Notes: generated by a model from the letters alone, not told the origin. DNA of 21,587 nucleotides from a virus (IMGVR_UViG_3300021964_010927:1-21587); one strand, 5' to 3'. Positions 2 through 17,110 are shown, counted from the first letter of the stretch. Program-made: numbers and translations.

Positions 2-1114
2 GATGGAGATGAGGTTGATTTTCAAAGGTTTAAAAGAAAATGGGCTTCCGAATATACAGGTACAGGCTCACAAGGAAAAACAGCATGGCTCAATGGAAAA
101 TGGTCATATATCCAACTAGGATTATCAAATAAAGAGCTACAAACTATTGAGCAATCAGAACTAAATACGGAGCAAATTTTCCTAGCGCACGGAGTTCCAT
201 TATCAGTTGCTGGAATAAAAGAAGCATCGAATTACGCAACTGCTCGTCAAGAATATATAAACTTCAGGAGACATACTGTCCTACCAATGGTGAAGCTAAT
301 ATTCAGCAGAATAAACCACAATTCAGGTTTTATTAGAAATTTCAATAAAGATTGGACTTTAAGCTATAAACTTTCTGGGTTAATTGATGTAGAGCAAGCA
401 GCTAAAGATTATGAGCTTTTAGTCAAATATGGCGCAATGACTTTAAACGAATATAGAGTTGCTTGCGGTATGGATGAATCTAATGATGAAAATCATGGCA
501 GATACTATACTGAAAGCACAAGAGTACCACTTGAAATCGCAGGCGCTGAGTCAATATTAATGTCCGAGAGATTTAGACTGCCAAGCGACCAAGAACTTGA
601 TAATGAGTTGCAAGATAACGAGATACAGCTACCTGATGACCCAGAGCTTAAAGAAGACAGGGAGGAAGAAGATAAAGGATTTGGAGGAGACCCAGACAGC
701 GTATACTTCGAGAATAAAAGCGTAGTAATAATAGACCCCACTAAAGAAATTTACAAAGGTTATGAGAAATCGGCTAAAAAGAATGCAAAACGAGCATTAG
801 CTTATAAGAAATCTGGATTCACTGGTGGCACGCTAAAAATGTGGGCTATATCAAGGAGAATTGCAGATGGTAAAGATTTGTCCTTGGAGCAAGTTAAATT
901 AATTGCATCTAAAGTTGGATTAATTAGGGAAAAAACAAAATCTTATGAAGATAGCAAATTTGCAGTTCATTTAGATGCTTTTGGTGGAACTTCAGGAATT
1001 AAATGGGCTAAAAACTTAATTGATGAAATAACAAATAAATCTATAAATTGGAACAAGCTAAAAGAGAAGCAATACTACGAAGAAGTTCAAATAGATGATG
1101 ATGAATTAGAATAA
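2..1114 (+). CDS. Portal protein, HK97-type, 3' part with C-terminal repeat domain
   Basis: The reading frame is open from base 2, so the gene starts upstream of the window and 370 residues are visible. The portal forms the ring at the capsid vertex through which DNA passes. The visible N-terminal half matches the end of HK97-type portals: a segment around EQIFLAHGVPLSVAG, then FRRHTVLPMVKLIF, then a late segment with YGAMTLNEYR, which resembles the typical 'lv..G.mT.NE.R' ending. After an acidic, Glu/Asp-rich linker (about bases 590-690) comes an added C-terminal domain (761-1030) that most portals lack. It is related to two segments of the protease gene at 1422. Portal identity rests on family pattern and on its place before protease and capsid. 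The ATG at 287 is internal, not the true start. Confidence 0.85.
   Translation, partial: DGDEVDFQRFKRKWASEYTGTGSQGKTAWLNGKWSYIQLGLSNKELQTIEQSELNTEQIFLAHGVPLSVAGIKEASNYATARQEYINFRRHTVLPMVKLIFSRINHNSGFIRNFNKDWTLSYKLSGLIDVEQAAKDYELLVKYGAMTLNEYRVACGMDESNDENHGRYYTESTRVPLEIAGAESILMSERFRLPSDQELDNELQDNEIQLPDDPELKEDREEEDKGFGGDPDSVYFENKSVVIIDPTKEIYKGYEKSAKKNAKRALAYKKSGFTGGTLKMWAISRRIADGKDLSLEQVKLIASKVGLIREKTKSYEDSKFAVHLDAFGGTSGIKWAKNLIDEITNKSINWNKLKEKQYYEEVQIDDDELE
761..1030 (+). repeat. Shared domain, copy 1 (portal C-terminus)
   Basis: About 90 residues containing NAKRAL, WAISRRIADG and DAFGGTSGIKWAKNLIDEI. The same order of blocks (NAK+AL, WAI, A.G, DA.GGT.GI.WAK.L..EI) appears in the protease at 1863-2129, and more distantly at 2313-2633. 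Similarity was found by eye from the translations. The function is unknown to me. Confidence 0.8.
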
Positions 1115-1123
1115 GAAATTTAT

Positions 1124-1137
1124 TTGACTTGTATTGT
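1124..1137 (+). promoter_or_regulatory. TTGAC-N4-ATTGT motif, copy 1
   Basis: TTGAC, four bases, then ATTGT, in the gap between the portal stop and the ATG at 1160 (36 bases from motif start to ATG). The TTGAC half looks like a sigma70 -35 box, but no good -10 box follows at 16-18 bases here. The same spaced pair occurs upstream of three other genes. Confidence 0.45.
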
Positions 1138-1159
1138 AAGTTATTGATTTTTTCAATAA

Positions 1160-1381
1160 ATGAGGAGTCATTCGCAACTCCCCGAATCTATTAGAAAAAA
1201 AAATAACAATAAAAACGAGTCATTCGAAGATTTAAAAAAATTAATAGATGAAGGGTATGAGAGATTTTGGGCAGCCCCGCACAGGCGAGGTTTGAGACCA
1301 GACAAATTTAATTTTGGATATATTGATTTTTCTAATCCAAAAGAAATAACAGAAGATGAATTCCCTGATGACTTGACTTGA
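1160..1381 (+). CDS. Hypothetical protein, 73 residues
   Basis: I do not recognise this small ORF between the portal and protease genes. The product is hydrophilic and charged, with an aromatic centre (YERFWAAPHRRG) and an acidic tail (EITEDEFPDD). It has no signal peptide, membrane segment or obvious metal-binding motif. No clear Shine-Dalgarno sequence precedes the ATG. The upstream gap carries a copy of the TTGAC-N4-ATTGT motif, and the 3' end overlaps the next copy of that motif. Strand, spacing and AT-rich codon use agree with the neighbours, which favours a real gene. Its short length and missing ribosome binding site keep the call moderate. Confidence 0.55.
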   Translation: MRSHSQLPESIRKKNNNKNESFEDLKKLIDEGYERFWAAPHRRGLRPDKFNFGYIDFSNPKEITEDEFPDDLT

Positions 1382-1391
1382 CTTAAATTGT
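1378..1391 (+). promoter_or_regulatory. TTGAC-N4-ATTGT motif, copy 2, possible promoter of the protease gene
   Basis: TTGAC (itself tandem, TTGACTTGAC from 1373), four bases, ATTGT. Eighteen bases after the TTGACT hexamer is AATAAT (1402-1407), a five-of-six match to TATAAT, so this copy also reads as a sigma70-like promoter. The protease ATG is at 1422. Confidence 0.5.
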
Positions 1392-1421
1392 GATATTAGA
1401 AAATAATAAAAAGTTACTGCT

Positions 1422-3392
1422 ATGAGTATAAAAATTTCAAAAACTATAAATGTTAAGTTTGATAAGCAAAATCCAGACTTAAGGCACTCTAAATTTACTA
1501 CTCCATCAATTGGTTGGGTTGACGGAATAAGAAAAAAGTTTCCCGAAATATGGGAATCTGGAGAAAGTTCTATTTCTGATGATGCTTTTTATTCATGGGT
1601 GGAATACTCAAAAGGCATTAGAAGCGAAGCCACAGATAAATGGCTCATCAGGAGAGAGCGCTGGGCTGAGTTACATAAAAGTGATGGATTGTCATTAATT
1701 GCATCAGAAACTTCCCCTACATTAGCAAAGCAAGTAGTTAACATGCTAAAGTGGGGTGTAGTCGGAGAAATCGGTCTAGACAACATGATAGACGTCATTA
1801 GTGATATAATTGACGGAAAGGTGGAAAGTAAATCATTCTTTCTTGAAAAAACTTATGGAGAGTATCCAGATACAGCGGTCGAAAATGCGAAAAAAGCTTT
1901 AGTTTGGAAAGGTGAGCATTCAGAAAGAAACAAAGAATCTATTTGGGCAATAGCTGAAAAATTTGCATCTGGCGAAAAATTTAATTCTCATGAATTAAGG
2001 ACTATTGCTAAATTTGAATCACAAAAAGAACACGCAGGCAAAAAATACAAATCAATTGAACCTGTATTATATGATGCGGTAGGTGGAACCAATGGAATTA
2101 TTTGGGCTAAAAGATTAGTCCAAGAAATTGATTCTTCTAAAAAAAAAGTTTATAAGCAAAGGTCTGAAAGCTTAAAGTCTTCAATTGAGCAGACTAAGCA
2201 TGTACGGAATGTCGAAGAGACCGAAGACTCTTATATAATTGAATTTGGTAAATCAGATGAAATAGACGCTAAGGATGAAGATGATTACATTGAAGCTGAA
2301 AAAATAGATTCTGTACCATCTTATATCAAGAGAAACGCAAAGAGAGGATTAAGCTTACTTAAATTTGCAGGTGGTGGACTAACTGACGGAACTAAGAGCG
2401 AAGCTAGAGATATGGCTAGAGGTTTTATTTCTGATGGAAAAGTAAAAAGAATGAATGCATGGTTTCTCAGGCACGCAGATGATTTAAATTCTGCTGACGC
2501 TAGTGCTTATCTTAGGGGAGAAAAAGAAAACCCGACCGCTGGTCAAGTAGCTTGGTTGCTGTGGGGTGGTGATTTGTCAGCAAGTTCAAGAATGAGAGCG
2601 CAGAAGTGGGCAAAAAGTCAGGTTTCTAAATTAGAAAGAGAAACTGAATCGGAAAGTAGTTACCACAAAGAAGATGAAGAAAAGCGTTCTGTAATATCTT
2701 TCGACCTCAAAGGCAAAAAAACTTTTGGCATACAAGTTGATTCAGATGAGGTTGAGTTATTATATGAAAGTGAATCTGGAGAGTTTTATAAAACAGGAGC
2801 AAAAATAAATATTCCTGAAGAAGAAGTATTACAGGAAGAAATTGATTGCCCAACAAAATACGTCAGAAACTGGAACGCTCAAGCACCTATCGGAGACACC
2901 AAATCTTTTAAAGAAGTCACAAATGAAAATGGTTCAGTAGTTGATTATCTAGATGTTACTTTTAAGGGGTATGCATCTACTAATGAAAAAACAACTAAAG
3001 AAGATAGAATTGGAGATTATTTAAAAAAAGGAGCTTTTAAGAAAACAATAAATAATTTCATGCGCAATCCAGTTATGCTAATTGACCATCAAAATAGCGT
3101 AAAAGAAATTGCAGGCACATACACCAAGATGTATGAAGATAAAAATGGATTGTATGTTGAGGGTAAAATATCAAATTCCCCAGACCTCAAGAATGTAAGG
3201 TTTCTTGTAGCTGAAGGACATCTCAAGTCAATGAGTATTGGCGGAATGTTTCTTTACGGAGAAGACGGAAAAGCCATTGAAGAAGTAAATTTATACGAGA
3301 TTTCACTTGTTGCAATACCTATGAATCCAGATGCGCTATTCTCCGTCAGGGGAGTGGACGAGGAATTGTTTTTGAAAAAATTACAAAAATAG
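1422..3392 (+). CDS. Prohead maturation protease (HK97/S78-like) with a ~500-residue N-terminal extension
   Basis: Serine protease that trims the scaffold region of the capsid protein during head maturation. The catalytic domain lies at residues ~505-645. It includes FKGYAST near the start, MLIDHQ with the likely catalytic His556, KNGLYVEGKI, GHLKSMSIGG with the likely catalytic Ser605, and the closing VNLYEISLVAIPMNPDA, typical of the HK97 prohead protease family. Family members are usually about 150-250 residues, so this 656-residue protein is unusually long. Its N-terminal part holds a separate module at ~70-133 (RRERWAELH ... KWGVVGEIGLDNM), then two copies of the domain also found at the portal C-terminus (~148-236 and ~298-404), then an acidic linker. 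There is no strong Shine-Dalgarno sequence; a possible promoter lies just upstream. The extension may act in capsid assembly before cleavage, but this is inference. Confidence 0.9.
   Translation: MSIKISKTINVKFDKQNPDLRHSKFTTPSIGWVDGIRKKFPEIWESGESSISDDAFYSWVEYSKGIRSEATDKWLIRRERWAELHKSDGLSLIASETSPTLAKQVVNMLKWGVVGEIGLDNMIDVISDIIDGKVESKSFFLEKTYGEYPDTAVENAKKALVWKGEHSERNKESIWAIAEKFASGEKFNSHELRTIAKFESQKEHAGKKYKSIEPVLYDAVGGTNGIIWAKRLVQEIDSSKKKVYKQRSESLKSSIEQTKHVRNVEETEDSYIIEFGKSDEIDAKDEDDYIEAEKIDSVPSYIKRNAKRGLSLLKFAGGGLTDGTKSEARDMARGFISDGKVKRMNAWFLRHADDLNSADASAYLRGEKENPTAGQVAWLLWGGDLSASSRMRAQKWAKSQVSKLERETESESSYHKEDEEKRSVISFDLKGKKTFGIQVDSDEVELLYESESGEFYKTGAKINIPEEEVLQEEIDCPTKYVRNWNAQAPIGDTKSFKEVTNENGSVVDYLDVTFKGYASTNEKTTKEDRIGDYLKKGAFKKTINNFMRNPVMLIDHQNSVKEIAGTYTKMYEDKNGLYVEGKISNSPDLKNVRFLVAEGHLKSMSIGGMFLYGEDGKAIEEVNLYEISLVAIPMNPDALFSVRGVDEELFLKKLQK
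1863..2129 (+). repeat. Shared domain, copy 2 (protease extension)
   Basis: Protease residues ~148-236, containing NAKKAL, IWAIAEKFASG and DAVGGTNGIIWAKRLVQEI. This is the closer match to the portal copy at 761-1030. Confidence 0.8.
2313..2633 (+). repeat. Shared domain, copy 3 (protease extension), divergent
   Basis: Protease residues ~298-404, containing YIKRNAKRGL, an ARDMARGFISDG helix, NAWFLRH, QVAWLLWGGD and QKWAKSQ. The block order follows copies 1 and 2, but the middle is longer. The NA+RGL ... AWLLWGGD ... WA pattern is one I recall from structural proteins of other phages; I cannot give a family name. Confidence 0.65.
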
Positions 3393-3473: not shown

Positions 3474-5138
3474 ATGAACGAGAAACAGAAGCAACGATTC
3501 TGGGAACTCAAGGGCAAAAAGTCCCTTACTGCTTCACAGCGTGAAGAGTTGGTTCAACTTGAGGAAAAAGCCCTTAAAAGCGGTTTAGACCTTGAGAACC
3601 TTGAACCTGTCTCTTCTGATTCCCAACTAACTGAAAATGAACTAGCAGAGATTGTCAAGTCTGCCGTAGAAGACCAAGTATTTGGTTTGCGCGAAGAAAT
3701 ACTTGATGAAGTCAAAAAAGCTGGTAATACTGAAGAAGTAGAAGAAATTGTAAAAAAGTACGCTACCGAAATCGACCAAGAAGAATTAATTGAAAAACTT
3801 GGCGAAAAGTTCGCTGGCAACCAAGTTAGTCAAGAAGGTCTTGTTGATGCTTTCAAGAGCGCTATTTCAGAATTTAAAACGGAGTCCAAAATGACGCACG
3901 AAGAAAAATCCTTAGACAGCACTCCATTAATTGAAATGCCATATGGTGATTCAGTTGAGACATTGACTGTTGCACAAAAACAACTTCACAACTTGCTTTG
4001 CCGTAAGCATGTGAATCAAGATATTCCTGAGTCATCACTTAAGAGTGCTGAAGCAAGAGGTCGTCAACGCATGTCTAGGCTTGAGAGCAAAGCTCTTGAA
4101 ACTCAAGGTGGTCCAACTGGTACTGTTGGTACTACTGCTGGTCTTGAGTTGTCACGTGTTAATGTTGACCTTTCTAGCCAACTGCAAGAGCGCTTGTATG
4201 CAGAATCTGCTGTAGCAAATCGCTTGATTGGTTCCGAAATCAACATGCCAACAAATCCATTTAAGCTTCCAGTCGTGACTTCACGTCCTGAGTTCAAGCT
4301 TCAAAAGGAAGCAACTGCTGGTGGATATACTAACCCAGCAGATACAGGCACGCAGAATGTAGGTACTGCAAATGTAACTCTTGATACTTTCAAGCTTGTT
4401 GGAGTTTCTGAGTATTCATACGAAGTTGATGAGGATAGCGTTCTTGCAATCCTTCCTATCATCACTAATCAGCTTGCATCTGGCGCAGCAGCTTCTTTTG
4501 AGGAAGCAATTATCAATGGTGATACGTCTGTAACACACATGGATACAGCAATTGCAAACGCTGCTGGCGCACTAGTTGGACCTCCAGTTGTTCCTGCTGT
4601 TAATAATGCAAATATTGCACAACGTGCGGTAGACGGCATGGTTCACTATGCTCTGGTTACTAACACTGCACAAGATGTTGCTGTTGGTGGCGTATTATCC
4701 GCTGCAGCAATTGGTACACTTAGGTCTGCACTTGGGCCTTATGGATTAAATCCAAGAGACCTTGCACTAATTGTCAGCATTGAGGATTACAATACTTTGT
4801 TAATTCAAGATGAAGTAATGCATAGTGAGAAGTATGGCGCTCAAGGAACTATCCAGAATGGCGTTCTTCCACAAATCTTCGGAATTGATATTGTTCCATC
4901 TGCGGCAATGAGAACTACTTGTGATGCAACTGGTGTTGATACTGGTGCTGGAGGTAAGTCTCGTTGCTCATTAATTCATGTTCCATCATGGGTTGTTGGA
5001 GTACGTCGTGAGTTTACCGTTGAGGTAGACCAAGACAAAATCGCTCAAGTTAATCAAGTTATTGCTTCCTTCCGCAGGGACTTCAAGCCAATTGGCTCGA
5101 ATTTCCCACACACTGTGTTAGGAACTAACATCGGTTAA
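3474..5138 (+). CDS. Major capsid protein, HK97 fold, with N-terminal scaffold (delta) region
   Basis: Shell-forming protein of the phage head. Residues 1 to ~210 are highly charged and helix-forming (for example LREEILDEVKKAG and EEVEEIVKKY), like the delta domain that acts as scaffold and is removed by the protease. The mature part probably starts near LESKALETQGGPTGTVGT. It continues through FKLPVVTSRPEFKLQKEAT, TFKLVGVSEYSYEV, FEEAIINGD, LNPRDLALIVS and GIDIVPSAAM, the order usual for HK97-fold capsids (N-arm, E-loop, spine helix, P-domain, A-domain). Codon use differs from its neighbours: 15 of 21 Arg codons are CGN by my count, whereas flanking genes favour AGA/AGG. This suggests selection for high expression. 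A terminator follows the gene. The first ATG has no clear ribosome binding site, while an in-frame ATG at 3891 has GGAG six bases before it. Confidence 0.92.
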   Translation: MNEKQKQRFWELKGKKSLTASQREELVQLEEKALKSGLDLENLEPVSSDSQLTENELAEIVKSAVEDQVFGLREEILDEVKKAGNTEEVEEIVKKYATEIDQEELIEKLGEKFAGNQVSQEGLVDAFKSAISEFKTESKMTHEEKSLDSTPLIEMPYGDSVETLTVAQKQLHNLLCRKHVNQDIPESSLKSAEARGRQRMSRLESKALETQGGPTGTVGTTAGLELSRVNVDLSSQLQERLYAESAVANRLIGSEINMPTNPFKLPVVTSRPEFKLQKEATAGGYTNPADTGTQNVGTANVTLDTFKLVGVSEYSYEVDEDSVLAILPIITNQLASGAAASFEEAIINGDTSVTHMDTAIANAAGALVGPPVVPAVNNANIAQRAVDGMVHYALVTNTAQDVAVGGVLSAAAIGTLRSALGPYGLNPRDLALIVSIEDYNTLLIQDEVMHSEKYGAQGTIQNGVLPQIFGIDIVPSAAMRTTCDATGVDTGAGGKSRCSLIHVPSWVVGVRREFTVEVDQDKIAQVNQVIASFRRDFKPIGSNFPHTVLGTNIG

Positions 5139-5162
5139 TAAGACTGATATTCCTTTAAAAAT

Positions 5163-5198
5163 GAGCGCGGTCTTGACAAAACAGACCGCGCTCTTTTT
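5163..5198 (+). terminator. Rho-independent terminator after the capsid gene
   Basis: A perfect 11-bp GC-rich stem, GAGCGCGGTCT (5163-5173) pairing with AGACCGCGCTC (5183-5193), has a 9-base loop and is followed directly by TTTTT. An A-tract just upstream (5157-5161) could pair with the T-tract, so it might also work in reverse. It lies 24 bases after the capsid stop and would limit read-through from strong capsid transcription. Confidence 0.92.
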
Positions 5199-5210
5199 AT
5201 TTATAAAATA

Positions 5211-5711
5211 ATGAGATTAGTAAAAAATACAGAATTAAATAATAATGAATTAATTGAGTACAAAGAGTATGACATATTATTAAACTGGAAAAATAGGCAT
5301 AAAGTATTAATTCAATATTGTGATTTACCAACGCCTGCCGTAAGGAAAGACACAGTTTGGTATAATAGAATTTTCGAATTAGATTGGAATAATCCAATTA
5401 TATTAAATTCGCTAGTATCGTTCCCAAGAAGAGTTAGGGATAAAGTAGTTAGAGAACTATTGCATCAATCAGGAATCAAAGATGATGGTAGCTGGAGAAT
5501 CAAGAAGAAAAATAACTTAGTTGCATATATATTTGAACTAGCATACAATTTAGGCTTAATGAATGGCATGCCAATTAAACAGGCAAGAAAAACTAAAAAT
5601 GTTATCAACGATGAAGATTCCAAAAAAAATAAACAAAGTATCAGCAAGAAGGTTAGTAAAGGAGAGCGACCTAGGGCCAGAAAAAAAGAAAAACCTATTG
5701 CATCTGATTAA
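5211..5711 (+). CDS. Hypothetical protein, 166 residues
   Basis: First gene after the capsid terminator; I do not recognise it. The first ~125 residues look folded, with many aromatic and hydrophobic positions (DILLNWKNRHKVLIQY, WYNRIFELDWNNP, LVAYIFELAYNLGL). The last ~45 residues are a Lys/Arg-rich, probably disordered tail. It lies between capsid and head-tail adaptor, where phages often encode head decoration or completion proteins, but no sequence match supports a role. The ATG is 13 bases after the terminator T-tract and no Shine-Dalgarno sequence is visible. The 3' third overlaps another ORF in a different frame, and that overlap coincides with the low-complexity tail. Confidence 0.7.
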   Translation: MRLVKNTELNNNELIEYKEYDILLNWKNRHKVLIQYCDLPTPAVRKDTVWYNRIFELDWNNPIILNSLVSFPRRVRDKVVRELLHQSGIKDDGSWRIKKKNNLVAYIFELAYNLGLMNGMPIKQARKTKNVINDEDSKKNKQSISKKVSKGERPRARKKEKPIASD

Positions 5712-5847
5712 TAACTTTAAAGGTGGAGATACCGCCAATGTATCCGATGTTTTGAGTTCACATTTTCAAGCAAATAAAAATAGAGAAAATAGTGAGTCAT
5801 TCAAGCAGAAGAAAATGCTTGATACTCAAAAAATGGACAAAGCTTAA
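5563..5847 (+). CDS. Hypothetical protein, up to 94 residues, overlapping the previous gene
   Basis: I do not recognise this ORF. It runs in a different frame from the gene at 5211 and overlaps it by up to 149 bases. The start is uncertain: ATG 5563 gives the longest form, ATG 5599 and 5611 are alternatives, and TTG 5698 would almost remove the overlap. None has a convincing Shine-Dalgarno sequence. The product is basic, with a plausible helical segment (SARRLVKESDLGPEKKKNLLHLINNF) [split here as SARRLVKESDL and KKKNLLHLINNF] and a polar end. The region 5712-5847 is coding only in this frame, and the ORF stops five bases before the adaptor ATG, so a real gene is likely. A +1 shift from the previous gene could also produce it as an extension, but I see no specific shift site. 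Confidence 0.58.
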   Translation: MACQLNRQEKLKMLSTMKIPKKINKVSARRLVKESDLGPEKKKNLLHLINNFKGGDTANVSDVLSSHFQANKNRENSESFKQKKMLDTQKMDKA

Positions 5848-5852
5848 TTTGT

Positions 5853-6479
5853 ATGGCTGTATACAATCCATATTGTACTACGGAAGATGTACAGCTACAT
5901 ATAAAAAATAACGACATTGCACCTTCCTTAGTAGAAAATTCTATATCTGAAGCATCTAGATATGTGGAGGAATACACAGGAAGATTTTTCCATAAGTATG
6001 ATTACACTACAGATGGCTATCAGGTTCCAGCTCTTGATTTTATAGAAGGTAAGCATATATATTTACCTTTTCCCGTAATAAGCGTCACTGAGCTATTCAT
6101 TGATGGAAATTTAATAACCTCCGATGTATATGATTTCCCACAGAAGCCAGTAAAATACAATCACAGAAGTGTAATAGAAATCACAGTAGAAAAAACCTCA
6201 GATTTCTTGGGACAGGTTTCGCAAATCAAAACATCAAATGCGTTAGTAAAAGGAATTTTTGGATTTACTGCGACTTCATCCGTAGACATTCCAGACGATA
6301 TACAATTTCCCTCAGGCATAAGAAGAGCCACTACTTTAATTGCAAGTACATTTACGGAAAACAATAGGAAAGAGCAAGTCACACTAGATGGCTCTAGAAC
6401 TAGCCTAGCTACTTTTACGATACCCGATGAGGCGCATAGTATACTAAATATGCACAAACGAAATGTAGTAGTCTGCTGA
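5853..6479 (+). CDS. Head-tail connector / adaptor protein (HK97 gp6-like)
   Basis: Predicted adaptor that docks under the portal ring to start the neck. The N-terminal region follows the gp6-like pattern: CTTEDVQLHIK, then a helix with LVENSISEASRYVEEYTGRFF, close to the usual 'li..ai..As.~ie.yTgR' motif. A beta-rich middle follows (IYLPFPVISVTELFIDG, typical 'L..~Pv.sv..v.~dG'), then a helical C-terminus (IRRATTLIASTFTE). At 208 residues it is on the long side for the family. The position after capsid and before neck genes fits. The stop overlaps the next ATG by one base (TGATG), suggesting coupled translation. Confidence 0.75.
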   Translation: MAVYNPYCTTEDVQLHIKNNDIAPSLVENSISEASRYVEEYTGRFFHKYDYTTDGYQVPALDFIEGKHIYLPFPVISVTELFIDGNLITSDVYDFPQKPVKYNHRSVIEITVEKTSDFLGQVSQIKTSNALVKGIFGFTATSSVDIPDDIQFPSGIRRATTLIASTFTENNRKEQVTLDGSRTSLATFTIPDEAHSILNMHKRNVVVC

Positions 6480-6988
6480 TGGCCTTAACAATAATCAGTC
6501 CAGGCAGTGCAAGGACAGAGAAACAGTTCCTTAGAGCATCAACAAAAGCTACAACTAGAAAAATTGGTTATGCTACAAAGCTAGCCATGAATGCCGCCAA
6601 GAAAGATATTAAGCAAAAAACCAAAAAAAGATACACTGGAAGCTTAAGAGAATCTTATGATGTTCAAAGAGTTGGCGAAGCTGAATATGCACTTCGGGTA
6701 GTAGGTTCAGAAAATTTAATAAAATGGATTGTTCACGAAGAAGGAAGAGGTCCAGTCAATGGAACAAAGGAAAGAAGATTGTATATACCGCTAAGAAAAA
6801 AAGGTTATGATGCGTATGTACGTGGTAGTTTCGAGGGATTGAAGTGGGGTAAAGATTATGTTTTTGCAATGAAAGCAAAATCAGTAAAAGGTCATAGGCT
6901 TCTATATAATGCCACAAATGTTGCGAAAGCTAGATTTAAAGCAAGATTTGAACTTCTTTTTGGAACTAAAAGGTTTTTAAGGGGATAA
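6479..6988 (+). CDS. Neck / tail-completion protein candidate (HK97 gp10-like)
   Basis: A 169-residue basic protein. A helical N-terminus (KATTRKIGYATKLAMNAAKKDI) [read as KATTRKIGYATK then LAMNAAKKDI] is followed by TGSLRESYDV, a pattern like the 'TG.Lr.si.v' of HK97 gp10-like tail-completion proteins. A beta-rich part follows (YALRVVGSENLIKWIVHEEG, then RRLYIPLRKKG), and then a basic helical C-terminus (LLYNATNVAKARFKARFEL). Such proteins join the finished head to the tail or close the neck. The call rests on that motif and on gene order between adaptor and tail-terminator candidates. The start is set by the one-base overlap with the previous stop. Confidence 0.55.
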   Translation: MALTIISPGSARTEKQFLRASTKATTRKIGYATKLAMNAAKKDIKQKTKKRYTGSLRESYDVQRVGEAEYALRVVGSENLIKWIVHEEGRGPVNGTKERRLYIPLRKKGYDAYVRGSFEGLKWGKDYVFAMKAKSVKGHRLLYNATNVAKARFKARFELLFGTKRFLRG

Positions 6989-14726: not shown

Positions 14727-15458
14727 ATGACATCAGTAATAAAACATATAGGTGAAACTAATTTTGAAACTGTAGGAAGCACTACAAAGTTAAACAATAC
14801 TGGTGTCATTTATGCTCAGTATAAATATTTATTATCAGGAGAATCTTATAGTATTAATGAAGCTCAAGATTGGGCAACTGGTCATTTTGGTGGAGATGAC
14901 GATAATCATTCTCACCTAAAATGCGTAAATGCTTCTTGTAATACTAACGGCCCCTTCCATGAAGTTACGCTTGTTTACCAAGGAATACCAAGAAATGCTA
15001 AAAATAAAATAGCAAAAGTAAGCGCATCCACAACAACCGAGCCAATTGATACGCATCCAGAATTTGAAAAATTTGCAGGAGATAAAGATGAACCTAAAAA
15101 CGAAGCAATATTTAATGATGATGGGACATTTAAAGCATTTAAGGTTCATCCTTCTTGCCCTAGACCAAGAAATAATAATAAAGCTGGAATTAAGTCTTAT
15201 TTAGCTCCAAGTATGACATATGAACTAGTTGCAGAATTAGGCTCCCCAAGTAATAACACTGAGGAAATAGGCACAATATCAATTTCCCCAGACCCACACG
15301 CGCCAGCAGGTCTTAATAGTTTAAGACCTCCCAAAATAGGCAAAAGAAATTGGCTTGTTATTGGTGTTGATGAGCAACCATTCGGAAATGGTGTAAGAGA
15401 GACAACAAAATGGAGACTCAGTGGTAGGCGAGAGTGGAATAAGGATATTTACGATTAA
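14727..15458 (+). CDS. Tail protein, 243 residues, paralogue of the next gene's C-terminal half
   Basis: First gene after the tape measure gene, so a baseplate, tail-tip or distal-tail component is likely. I do not recognise the family. Its sequence from about residue 30 to the end aligns with residues ~345-550 of the 15458 gene. Shared blocks are PIDTHPEFEKFAGDKDEPKN (next gene PIDSHPEFCDFGGDKDEPKN), GIKSYLAPS (GVKSYLSPN) and the closing WRLSGRREWNKDIYD (YRLSGKNGWDSDIYE). The pattern of a conserved Trp and 'LSG...W..DIY' at the end recalls domains near the tail tip of other phages, but this is only an impression. GGAGG lies 11 bases before the ATG, inside the end of the tape measure gene. 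The stop overlaps the next ATG by one base. Confidence 0.75.
   Translation: MTSVIKHIGETNFETVGSTTKLNNTGVIYAQYKYLLSGESYSINEAQDWATGHFGGDDDNHSHLKCVNASCNTNGPFHEVTLVYQGIPRNAKNKIAKVSASTTTEPIDTHPEFEKFAGDKDEPKNEAIFNDDGTFKAFKVHPSCPRPRNNNKAGIKSYLAPSMTYELVAELGSPSNNTEEIGTISISPDPHAPAGLNSLRPPKIGKRNWLVIGVDEQPFGNGVRETTKWRLSGRREWNKDIYD
15045..15140 (+). repeat. Direct repeat, copy A (gene 14727)
   Basis: A 96-base segment encoding the IDTHPEF ... GDKDEPKN ... block. The core from 15078 (GGAGATAAAGATGAACC) is almost unchanged at 16739 in the next gene, so the duplication is still visible in DNA as well as protein. Confidence 0.75.
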
Positions 15459-17110
15459 TGAGTGAGGAAGAAGACTATGGAGGAGGTGGAGGAGGAACTA
15501 CTACAACAACTACTACCACTACATTACCTCCATTCAATCCAGAGGATGAGTTTCCTGCGGTAATTGAGCGAACATCTGATGTAAGTCAGCCATGTACGCA
15601 GTTAGCAGAAGATTATTCTGGCCCAGAAAAATGTCACTTAATTGGAATTAGCCATTTCCAGACAACTTTTACATCAAAAACACCAAATGGTGGAACATAT
15701 AAATTAAATGGTCGGTTAGCTTATAGAAATGCATCTTGGTCAACGAAGCAGATAAGTCACTTATGGATTTATTATGATAGCCTTAGTTGCTGTTGGAGAC
15801 TAACACATAAAGGCACTATAGACTCTCCAATAGCGGAGCAAAAACAAATACAACAGTATAGTGACAATGAAGGTAATTCACTTGGTTTTTATATACCGAA
15901 TTTATTAATAGATTACACAAGAAGGGGAGTATATCTTCAGGGAGAATATGTAAACCCAAATGCAGGCTCTAGTAGCCCAGTTGGAGATTGGTTATGTAGT
16001 GCTGGTGGTAGTATTAGCGAGCAAGAAGTAAATCCCGTATTAACATGCAACGCAGGGGAAGCTCCAGATAATACATATGAGCAGATTACTGGCAGTAAAG
16101 ATTTTACTAGCTTTAGTAGTGCGCAAGGTCAGTTTAAAATAGTAGGTGATGAGAACGGAGAATGCGTAATATCTTTTTTTGAGCCAACACACAATGAAGT
16201 TACATTTGCTAAACGCAGATATGTTAAAATAATAATAAACAAAGATAATTCAGTAATATTTGACGCAGACGGCCCTCAGAAAAAAATATTAAAAGTTGGT
16301 GATACAATTAAATTCAATATGGTTAACGGCAAAGATTTCTTTCTAGTTAATTTTACATATATTGAAATTGGTAGTTTTATTGCTGGTATTAGTGTAGCTG
16401 GAGGTGCAGGAGGCATACAGATTCTTGGTCAGTTAAGTAATGACAGAACTATAGGAAGTAGTTTTTCGATGTCGGACAATAAAGTACAGCCCAAGGATAA
16501 ATATATAGTAAATGCAGGCGAAGGTGTATCATTTGCTCAAGGATTCACTGGTGGCACGCACAGTCCATACGATTATTGCTTTTTTGACTCAGCGGAAGTA
16601 ACAACTCTAGAAGGAGGCTTTGAAAGTGTTAGCATTAATTATAAAGGATTTTGGAATAATGAATATTCCACTATAACAATTCAATCATCTACAAACACAG
16701 ACCCGATTGACTCACATCCAGAATTTTGCGACTTTGGAGGAGATAAAGATGAACCCAAAAATGGAGCAATATTTAGAGATGATGAAACCTTTGATAAATT
16801 TGAGTTATACGTAGGAGATTTACTAAATGAATTTGCTGGTGTTAAAAGTTATCTTAGCCCAAATTATGTAGTTACGGAAAAAATAGAATATGCATTTGCT
16901 ACATTTGACGATTTAAAATCAATCGGAAAAGTGCAATCACCGCGCGGCTCAAGTGGGGGAGCGCAAAAAGCACGTAATTTAGCAAGAGGACAAAGAGATT
17001 TCCTTGTCACATCAGTATCATGGCAAGCATATGGCCAAGGTTGTATAGTAACCAAAAATTATAGATTAAGCGGTAAAAACGGCTGGGACTCAGATATATA
17101 TGAGAAATGA
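15458..17110 (+). CDS. Tail protein, 550 residues, with Gly6-Thr9 linker and duplicated C-terminal domain
   Basis: The protein starts with an acidic peptide, then six Gly and nine Thr (residues 8-22), a flexible linker of a kind that may be O-linked or simply unstructured. Residues ~30-190 hold a cysteine-containing, beta-rich region (ISHLWIYYDSLSCCWRLTHK). Residues ~195-340 form a second beta-rich region with a Gly-rich stretch (ISVAGGAGGIQILG). Residues ~345-550 are a paralogue of the 14727 gene product. The protein therefore looks like a fusion of an adhesin-like N-terminal part to a duplicated tail-tip domain. AAGGA lies 12 bases before the ATG; start and stop overlap the neighbours by one and four bases. 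A role in the tail tip or fibre is inferred from position and composition; I recognise no named family. Confidence 0.75.
   Translation: MSEEEDYGGGGGGTTTTTTTTTLPPFNPEDEFPAVIERTSDVSQPCTQLAEDYSGPEKCHLIGISHFQTTFTSKTPNGGTYKLNGRLAYRNASWSTKQISHLWIYYDSLSCCWRLTHKGTIDSPIAEQKQIQQYSDNEGNSLGFYIPNLLIDYTRRGVYLQGEYVNPNAGSSSPVGDWLCSAGGSISEQEVNPVLTCNAGEAPDNTYEQITGSKDFTSFSSAQGQFKIVGDENGECVISFFEPTHNEVTFAKRRYVKIIINKDNSVIFDADGPQKKILKVGDTIKFNMVNGKDFFLVNFTYIEIGSFIAGISVAGGAGGIQILGQLSNDRTIGSSFSMSDNKVQPKDKYIVNAGEGVSFAQGFTGGTHSPYDYCFFDSAEVTTLEGGFESVSINYKGFWNNEYSTITIQSSTNTDPIDSHPEFCDFGGDKDEPKNGAIFRDDETFDKFELYVGDLLNEFAGVKSYLSPNYVVTEKIEYAFATFDDLKSIGKVQSPRGSSGGAQKARNLARGQRDFLVTSVSWQAYGQGCIVTKNYRLSGKNGWDSDIYEK
15479..15523 (+). 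repeat. Low-complexity tract encoding Gly6 then Thr9
   Basis: Purine-rich GGAGGTGGAGG-like codons followed by nine ACN codons (ACT, ACA and ACC mixed). The varied third bases show the Thr run is not a simple slippage of one triplet and is probably kept at the protein level. Confidence 0.8.
16706..16801 (+). repeat. Direct repeat, copy B (gene 15458)
   Basis: Partner of the 96-base segment at 15045-15140, the same length with no gap by eye, encoding IDSHPEF ... GDKDEPKN ... . Confidence 0.75.

Follow-up and report, generated by a model that had tools for sequence, protein, structure and literature searches.

For HK97-type phages, it is only partly understood how the prohead protease and minor proteins come to lie within the shell. 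In tailed-phage heads generally, the C-terminus of the portal, MuF proteins, the protease, the capsid propeptide and the scaffold would all lie or act in the lumen of the prohead. Iyer et al. (2017; PMC5512222) describe phage head proteins, portal and MuF among them, to which small domains are fused. The present analysis concerns a domain of ~95-110 residues which occurs three times in the head genes of the viral DNA IMGVR_UViG_3300021964_010927:1-21587 (the window, meaning the full stretch of 21,587 nt), once at the C-terminus of the portal protein and twice in the prohead protease. Like the polyvalent head proteins of that account, the domain is also found on portal-MuF fusions; unlike them, it has no recognised enzymatic activity and is carried by proteases and capsid polyproteins as well, and the portion of the source at hand (PMC5512222) does not describe it.

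Both carriers are members of known families. The portal of the window belongs to Phage_portal (PF04860), but bears one copy of the domain, which follows the portal fold and is joined to it by an acidic linker. The protease is a member of the Peptidase_S78/HK97-type family (PF04586, TIGR01543) by its C-terminal ~130 residues, and unlike that family it has an N-terminal extension of ~500 residues with two copies of the domain. PHROG 2859 (740 positions) is an automatic cluster without function, domain boundaries or any mention of portal/protease sharing, and copy 1 alone is not matched by it. Hva1_TUDOR/DUF2945 (PF11160) is a different family, which frequently accompanies the domain, in the same polypeptide in viruses and usually as the next gene in bacteria; the window is without it (no match in a profile search).

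All three copies lie on the plus strand. Copy 1 (752..1033) comprises residues 251-344 of the 370 portal residues inside the window, or 481-574 of the full 600 on the 85-kb contig L003; copy 2 (1851..2132) comprises protease residues 144-237 and copy 3 (2307..2636), a long form, residues 296-405. A family profile based on 14 phage domains, all from outside the window, was run on all six frames of the window and recovered exactly these three segments with 35.0, 31.8 and 56.5 bits, respectively. Everything else in any frame scored at most 2 bits, and the best of 17,191 reversed open reading frames (ORFs) reached 9.9 bits. A fourth copy was found neither in the window with this six-frame profile nor on the 85-kb contig. 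Copies 1 and 2 are also related directly, by BLASTP (E 2e-14, 35% identity across 93 residues) and by a Smith-Waterman score of 133 (shuffled mean 31) that 0 of 2000 shuffles reached, and the protease as a tblastn query retrieves copy 1 at E 3.4e-11. In pairwise comparison of copy 3 with copy 1, 48 of 2000 shuffles scored as high, and with copy 2 there was no signal. Compared profile to profile, the copy-1/2 group (six rows) and the copy-3 group (three rows) gave a weak match (probability 19, E 0.0012), and the link of copy 3 is therefore drawn from the family profile. The copy-1/2 group matches a phage subgroup clearly (probability 97, E 1e-11), and the single-domain protein gp459 of Salicola phage SCTP-2 is matched by copy 2 and by copy 3. 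When copies 2 and 3 were aligned together for modelling, MAFFT placed no single-domain row on copy 2. The three segments are confirmed as copies of one homologous domain, as had been proposed in a sequence-only reading of this DNA whose coordinates agree to within about four codons. The blocks it had named (NAK+AL, WAI, A.G and GGT.GI.WAK) are present, the homology it had drawn between copies 1 and 2 holds in the BLASTP and shuffling results, and the longer form it had noticed in copy 3 consists of a longer loop and a 7-residue insertion following LWGGD.

The predicted folds agree as well. AlphaFold2 models of copy 1 (predicted local distance difference test, pLDDT, 93.9; predicted template-modelling score, pTM, 0.85) and copy 3 (90.0 and 0.82) are both all-helical, with the same order of a long helix, two further helices, a short helix, another short helix before a GG loop and a long C-terminal helix. 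The alignments behind both models contain the same 63 related rows (window, IMG/VR and GTDB), so that this test of a common fold is not fully independent, although both models are of high confidence. Copy 2 probably folds likewise, given its match to copy 1. Among the predicted viral structures of BFVD there are 37 significant matches (E <= 0.001, template-modelling scores to 0.88), which include XkdF proteins, prohead proteases and a halovirus portal.

The approximate consensus of the domain is ENAKRALELR..(K/R)GGT.VG.ARA.QLANG..LS.DTV.RM.SFF.RHE.DK......SAG.IAW.LWGGD.G..WA. No curated family names it, in keeping with the earlier remark that no named family was known for it: neither Pfam-A nor NCBIfam gave a family over cut-off within the copies or in the domain part of relatives scanned individually. 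The sole family found was PHROG 2859 ('unknown function'), whose positions ~161-271 correspond to the domain and which is matched by 58 of 67 representative carriers; against the separate segments it matched copy 3 (E 4.8e-11) and, weakly, copy 2 (E 0.013), with no match to copy 1. Literature searches for PHROG 2859, DUF5824, DUF3721, Hva1_TUDOR and shared portal/protease domains found no description of the domain. Matches of copy 2 to LANC_like and Vps52_C (E 0.02-0.09), and designed helical proteins met in the PDB profile search, were judged to be due to chance or composition.

The presence of the domain on portal and protease at once is conserved. When it was sought in other phage portal and protease genes, it was found on both in L004/L005 (protease 71% identical to that of the window), L261, L270 and L305. 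Orthologs of copy 1 are seen in the portals of L004 and L261, and orthologs of copy 2 in the proteases of L004, L261 and L270. In a FastTree phylogeny, with its deep branching left aside, the window, L004 and L261 have their portal copies in one group; likewise, the protease copy-2 sequences of the window, L004, L261 and L270 form a group, which also takes in the second, divergent copy on the L270 portal. Between the proteases of the window and L004, copies 2 and 3 are better conserved than the adjoining linkers.

Copy 3 changes its host protein among these viruses. Beyond the window/L004 pair, its closest relatives (62-64% identical, with the same insertion) stand behind a portal fold, on the contigs L270 (same contig as L302), L301, L303, L305 and L306. 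The proteases of L270, L303, L305 and L304 (the upstream gene being truncated in L304) bear copy 2 without copy 3. The window has a portal followed by copy 1 and a protease preceded by copies 2 and 3, and L305, L303 and L270 have a portal followed by a copy-3-like segment and a further copy, with a protease bearing copy 2 only. Hence, both arrangements hold three copies in total, with one of them standing on the other partner. Across viruses, the copy 3 subtype is carried by portals, portal-MuF, MuF, S78 and S78-major capsid protein (S78-MCP) proteins, as labelled with small home-made profiles that were checked against Pfam for ten proteins, and the tree of this subtype requires at least three host changes. 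In approximately unbiased (AU) tests, a single portal clade (p 0.07) and a single protease clade (p 0.06) were borderline and not rejected, with truncated-ORF contigs given new labels according to their tree position, which favours fewer changes. Repeated host switching of the copy 3 subtype is favoured, not proven.

A further module is common to these proteins. The portal C-terminus and the protease of L261 (L261:2555-4474 and 4806-6605) both have a four-cysteine module (CxxC...C...C, with an acidic/aromatic end), and the L270 protease (L270:3587-5449) has it where the window has copy 3. In DSL-LC01, a nearby gene is labelled 'high potential iron-sulfur protein' (L013:4009-4743).

The whole-family profile (A1) was too variable for scanning collections and subgroup alignments were used instead; the family as a whole was sampled by patterns from a few subgroups. 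In IMG/VR, at least 595 relatives among 600 stretches were found with one subgroup alignment and 309 and 176 with two others, and the scan of GTDB genomes gave 304 relatives. The family comprises hundreds of viral loci, and both phages and bacteria also have it as a gene of its own. In the 67 representative carriers, the domain is fused to Peptidase_S78 (21), Phage_portal (10), Phage_capsid (9), XkdF-type S78_2 (9), Phage_Mu_F (6), DUF2213 (3), lambda-type portal (2) and ClpP (2), with the small companion domains DUF5824 (10), DUF3721 (9) and Hva1_TUDOR (6); HAD and ferritin-like domains are also joined to the domain in some carriers. Its position may be N-terminal, internal or C-terminal. For example, it forms the N-terminus of protease-capsid polyproteins in Roseobacter phages CRP-811/406 and Synechococcus phage S-CBS1, is found on portal-MuF in the haloviruses HRTV-4 and HRTV-28 and on the prohead protease in HGTV-1, lies in a protein two genes upstream of the capsid gene in Vibrio phage 1.122, and is a single-domain gene within the head module of Synechococcus phage S-CBS4. 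Most of the 67 carriers are proteins that form part of the prohead or act inside it, and the share of head proteins is an upper estimate since the queries were head genes.

DUF5824 and DUF3721 recur in the same head proteins (L263:1810-3648, L307:3131-5008, L321:27-1448) and may belong, with the domain, to one group of movable modules. The label 'DNA methyltransferase' on fused Vibrio phage genes (L294:4992-5768, L267:671-2143) goes back to an XkdF-like protease part, the only part that matches phrog_1530, and this annotation looks wrong.

So wide a fusion range, with such variable positions in the carriers, might be expected of a selfish or neutral hitchhiker, that is, a small, well-folding and fusion-tolerant domain which recombination has spread among late genes without a fixed function there. 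Conserved polar residues have been lost from copies 1 and 2, which would suit this explanation too. It is nevertheless held to be improbable, as positional orthologs are kept over deep divergence (from the window to L261 to L270) and above the level of the neighbouring protease linkers, and the viral carriers are mostly head proteins and not random late genes (the sampling began from head-gene queries). The same fusion pattern bears on a quite improbable alternative, in which the domain is an injected accessory ('polyvalent') module, packaged into the head with the structural proteins that bear it and active, once injected, in the host cell, for example against host defences. In polyvalent proteins, domains have been described in fusion with MuF and portal (PMC5512222). 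The domain studied here likewise joins MuF, portal, HAD and ferritin-like domains; against such a role, it matches no enzyme profile in Pfam or NCBIfam, and no defence-gene link came up, though no search was aimed at one. It also counts against an injected role that the portal is not released from the virion and that S78 proteases do their work ahead of packaging.

The reading that is favoured, tentatively and at somewhat less than an even chance, is that the domain is a docking module of prohead-lumen proteins. It builds on the computed homology of the three copies, their common fold, the range of fusions, the conserved dual carriage and the host change of copy 3. A shared partner in the lumen is proposed because the domain is kept on portal and protease and is able to change sides between them. 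The docking module would place the same binding surface on both proteins, and both would meet one partner in the prohead lumen, for which the candidates are the portal and the protease themselves, each binding the other, or else the capsid protein through its scaffold/propeptide part. Docking would bring the protease into the portal-started prohead and retain it there until maturation. All sites at which carriers bear the domain, on scaffold-like proteins as on portal, protease, protease-capsid polyproteins and MuF, would then lie in the lumen, and the domain would act by binding protein. What the sequence-only reading had said of a domain shared by portal and protease stands in so far as one homologous domain is present on both, and does not stand as something specific to that pair: the domain is also found on capsid polyproteins, MuF, DUF2213, ClpP-like and XkdF proteins and in stand-alone genes, which argues against a dedicated portal-protease link. 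New support for a task shared by portal and protease comes from the dual carriage kept in relatives and from the host change of copy 3.

Several observations weigh against the docking reading. Foldseek searches of the PDB with copies 1 and 3 gave no match at E <= 0.001 and thus no fold-based hint; the best PDB match by VIA had a Z of 3.6, and a missing PDB match is no proof of a new fold. The conserved polar residues of the family, R34, R51, R58, H59 and D87, are mostly lost in copies 1 and 2, so that the three copies may be without a common ligand; copy 3 retains R58/H59/D87, and given this the copies may have specialised. The distribution of copy 3 could possibly reflect ancestral double copies with differential loss in place of a host switch. 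Moreover, in phage PaBG the domain is a single-domain gene adjoining topoisomerase genes, and in bacteria stand-alone genes of ~105 residues lie distant from phage genes, the short ORFs at 47 of 80 bacterial loci being the non-head side of the family. Given these bacterial and PaBG genes, the original function need not be head-specific.

Nucleic-acid binding is ranked as the main rival to docking, although it is considered unlikely. The domain would bind DNA or RNA and touch the incoming or packaged genome from portal, protease, MuF and capsid precursors, and the cellular version of this activity would be the stand-alone gene that lies beside a TUDOR gene in bacteria. Copies 1 and 3 are indeed basic (net +11 and +8, isoelectric point ~10), but the charge is not family-wide, with copy 2 at +2, three groups having medians of +3 to +5 and the halovirus-type group one of -4. 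Likewise, the PaBG copy is labelled a putative DNA-binding protein, a label of unknown basis, whereas its match to HTH_Tnp_Tc5 is weak (E 0.044) and below cut-off. A Dps-labelled protein occurs among the structural matches in BFVD, but the structure searches of the PDB gave no match to a DNA-binding fold, and the 'DNA methyltransferase' label of the Vibrio phage genes stems from the XkdF-like part and not from the domain.

The companion Hva1_TUDOR domain is a further point for nucleic-acid binding. With a TUDOR profile seeded with five such neighbours and 4-5 kb of flank searched, Hva1_TUDOR was found to adjoin the domain in ~48 of 80 bacterial loci, as a separate ORF 13-113 bp away in 39 and in the same ORF in 9, and it was present in 28 of 212 viral loci with the domain, in the same ORF in 27. 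In an independent sample of 61 genomes of one order, PF11160 was found in 8 and the domain in 2, both of which also have PF11160 (at a distance of 21 bp in one and about 13 kb in the other), and one of the two, G007, had itself been chosen for having the pair; 6 of the 8 genomes with PF11160 are without the domain. The association with Hva1_TUDOR is real but not obligate. The bacterial two-gene pair, Hva1_TUDOR (DUF2945) and a ~105-residue stand-alone copy 13-113 bp apart (L196-L259, L296:4778-5312), was found in Rhizobiales, Sphingomonadales, Henriciella and Verrucomicrobia.

The genes bearing the three copies stand in the order portal, 73-codon ORF, S78 prohead protease and next head gene, on the plus strand. 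The 3' part of the portal gene (2..1114; 370 residues, with the 5' end beyond the edge) matches Phage_portal at E 1.9e-23, with 83.6 bits against a curated cut-off of 39.1, and the complete 600-residue gene on L003, where the portal and protease matches are 100% identical to those of the window, does so at E 1.9e-56. The protease of 656 residues (1422..3392) is above the curated cut-offs of Peptidase_S78 (E 3.9e-16; 60.1 bits against 21) and TIGR01543 (E 2.7e-20; 73 against 59). Its S78 domain proper (2952..3356; residues ~511-645, Pfam match 513-640), delimited by the Pfam match and conservation, is the best-conserved part of the gene, with 119/135 residues identical to L004 and 92/135 to L270. 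The protease sequence shows VMLIDHQ and LKSMSIGG as candidate His and Ser motifs. The N-terminal region of the same protein (1422..1835; residues 1-138) is separate from the repeated domain and conserved among relatives, with identities of 100/136 to L004, 68/138 to L261 and 42/132 to L270; this region (residues 1-~138, GWVDGIRKKFPEIWESGE...WLIRRERWAELH...) is unrelated to the repeated domain and has no Pfam match. A putative major capsid protein (3474..5138, plus strand), so named from its position after the protease, would be the third player of the head module. In the tail region, the adjacent genes 14727-15458 and 15458-17110 have related ends (PIDTHPEFEKFAGDKDEPKN...WRLSGRREWNKDIYD and PIDSHPEFCDFGGDKDEPKN...YRLSGKNGWDSDIYE), a likely duplication, and a low-complexity GGGGGGTTTTTTTTTLPP stretch opens the second of them (15458-15530).

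A domain found on portal and protease at once, and switching sides among related viruses, points to a shared partner. On a broader claim, which is on the doubtful side, it would be an undescribed, widespread and movable 'address tag' on portal, protease, capsid precursor or MuF that gathers them on one lumen partner, and it would be derived from, or shared with, a bacterial gene that has a TUDOR-like partner. Hundreds of proteins now called hypothetical gain a family worth a name, and the bacterial gene pair is flagged. If true, a side-changing tag would be a general means of bringing proteases and cargo into HK97-type proheads.

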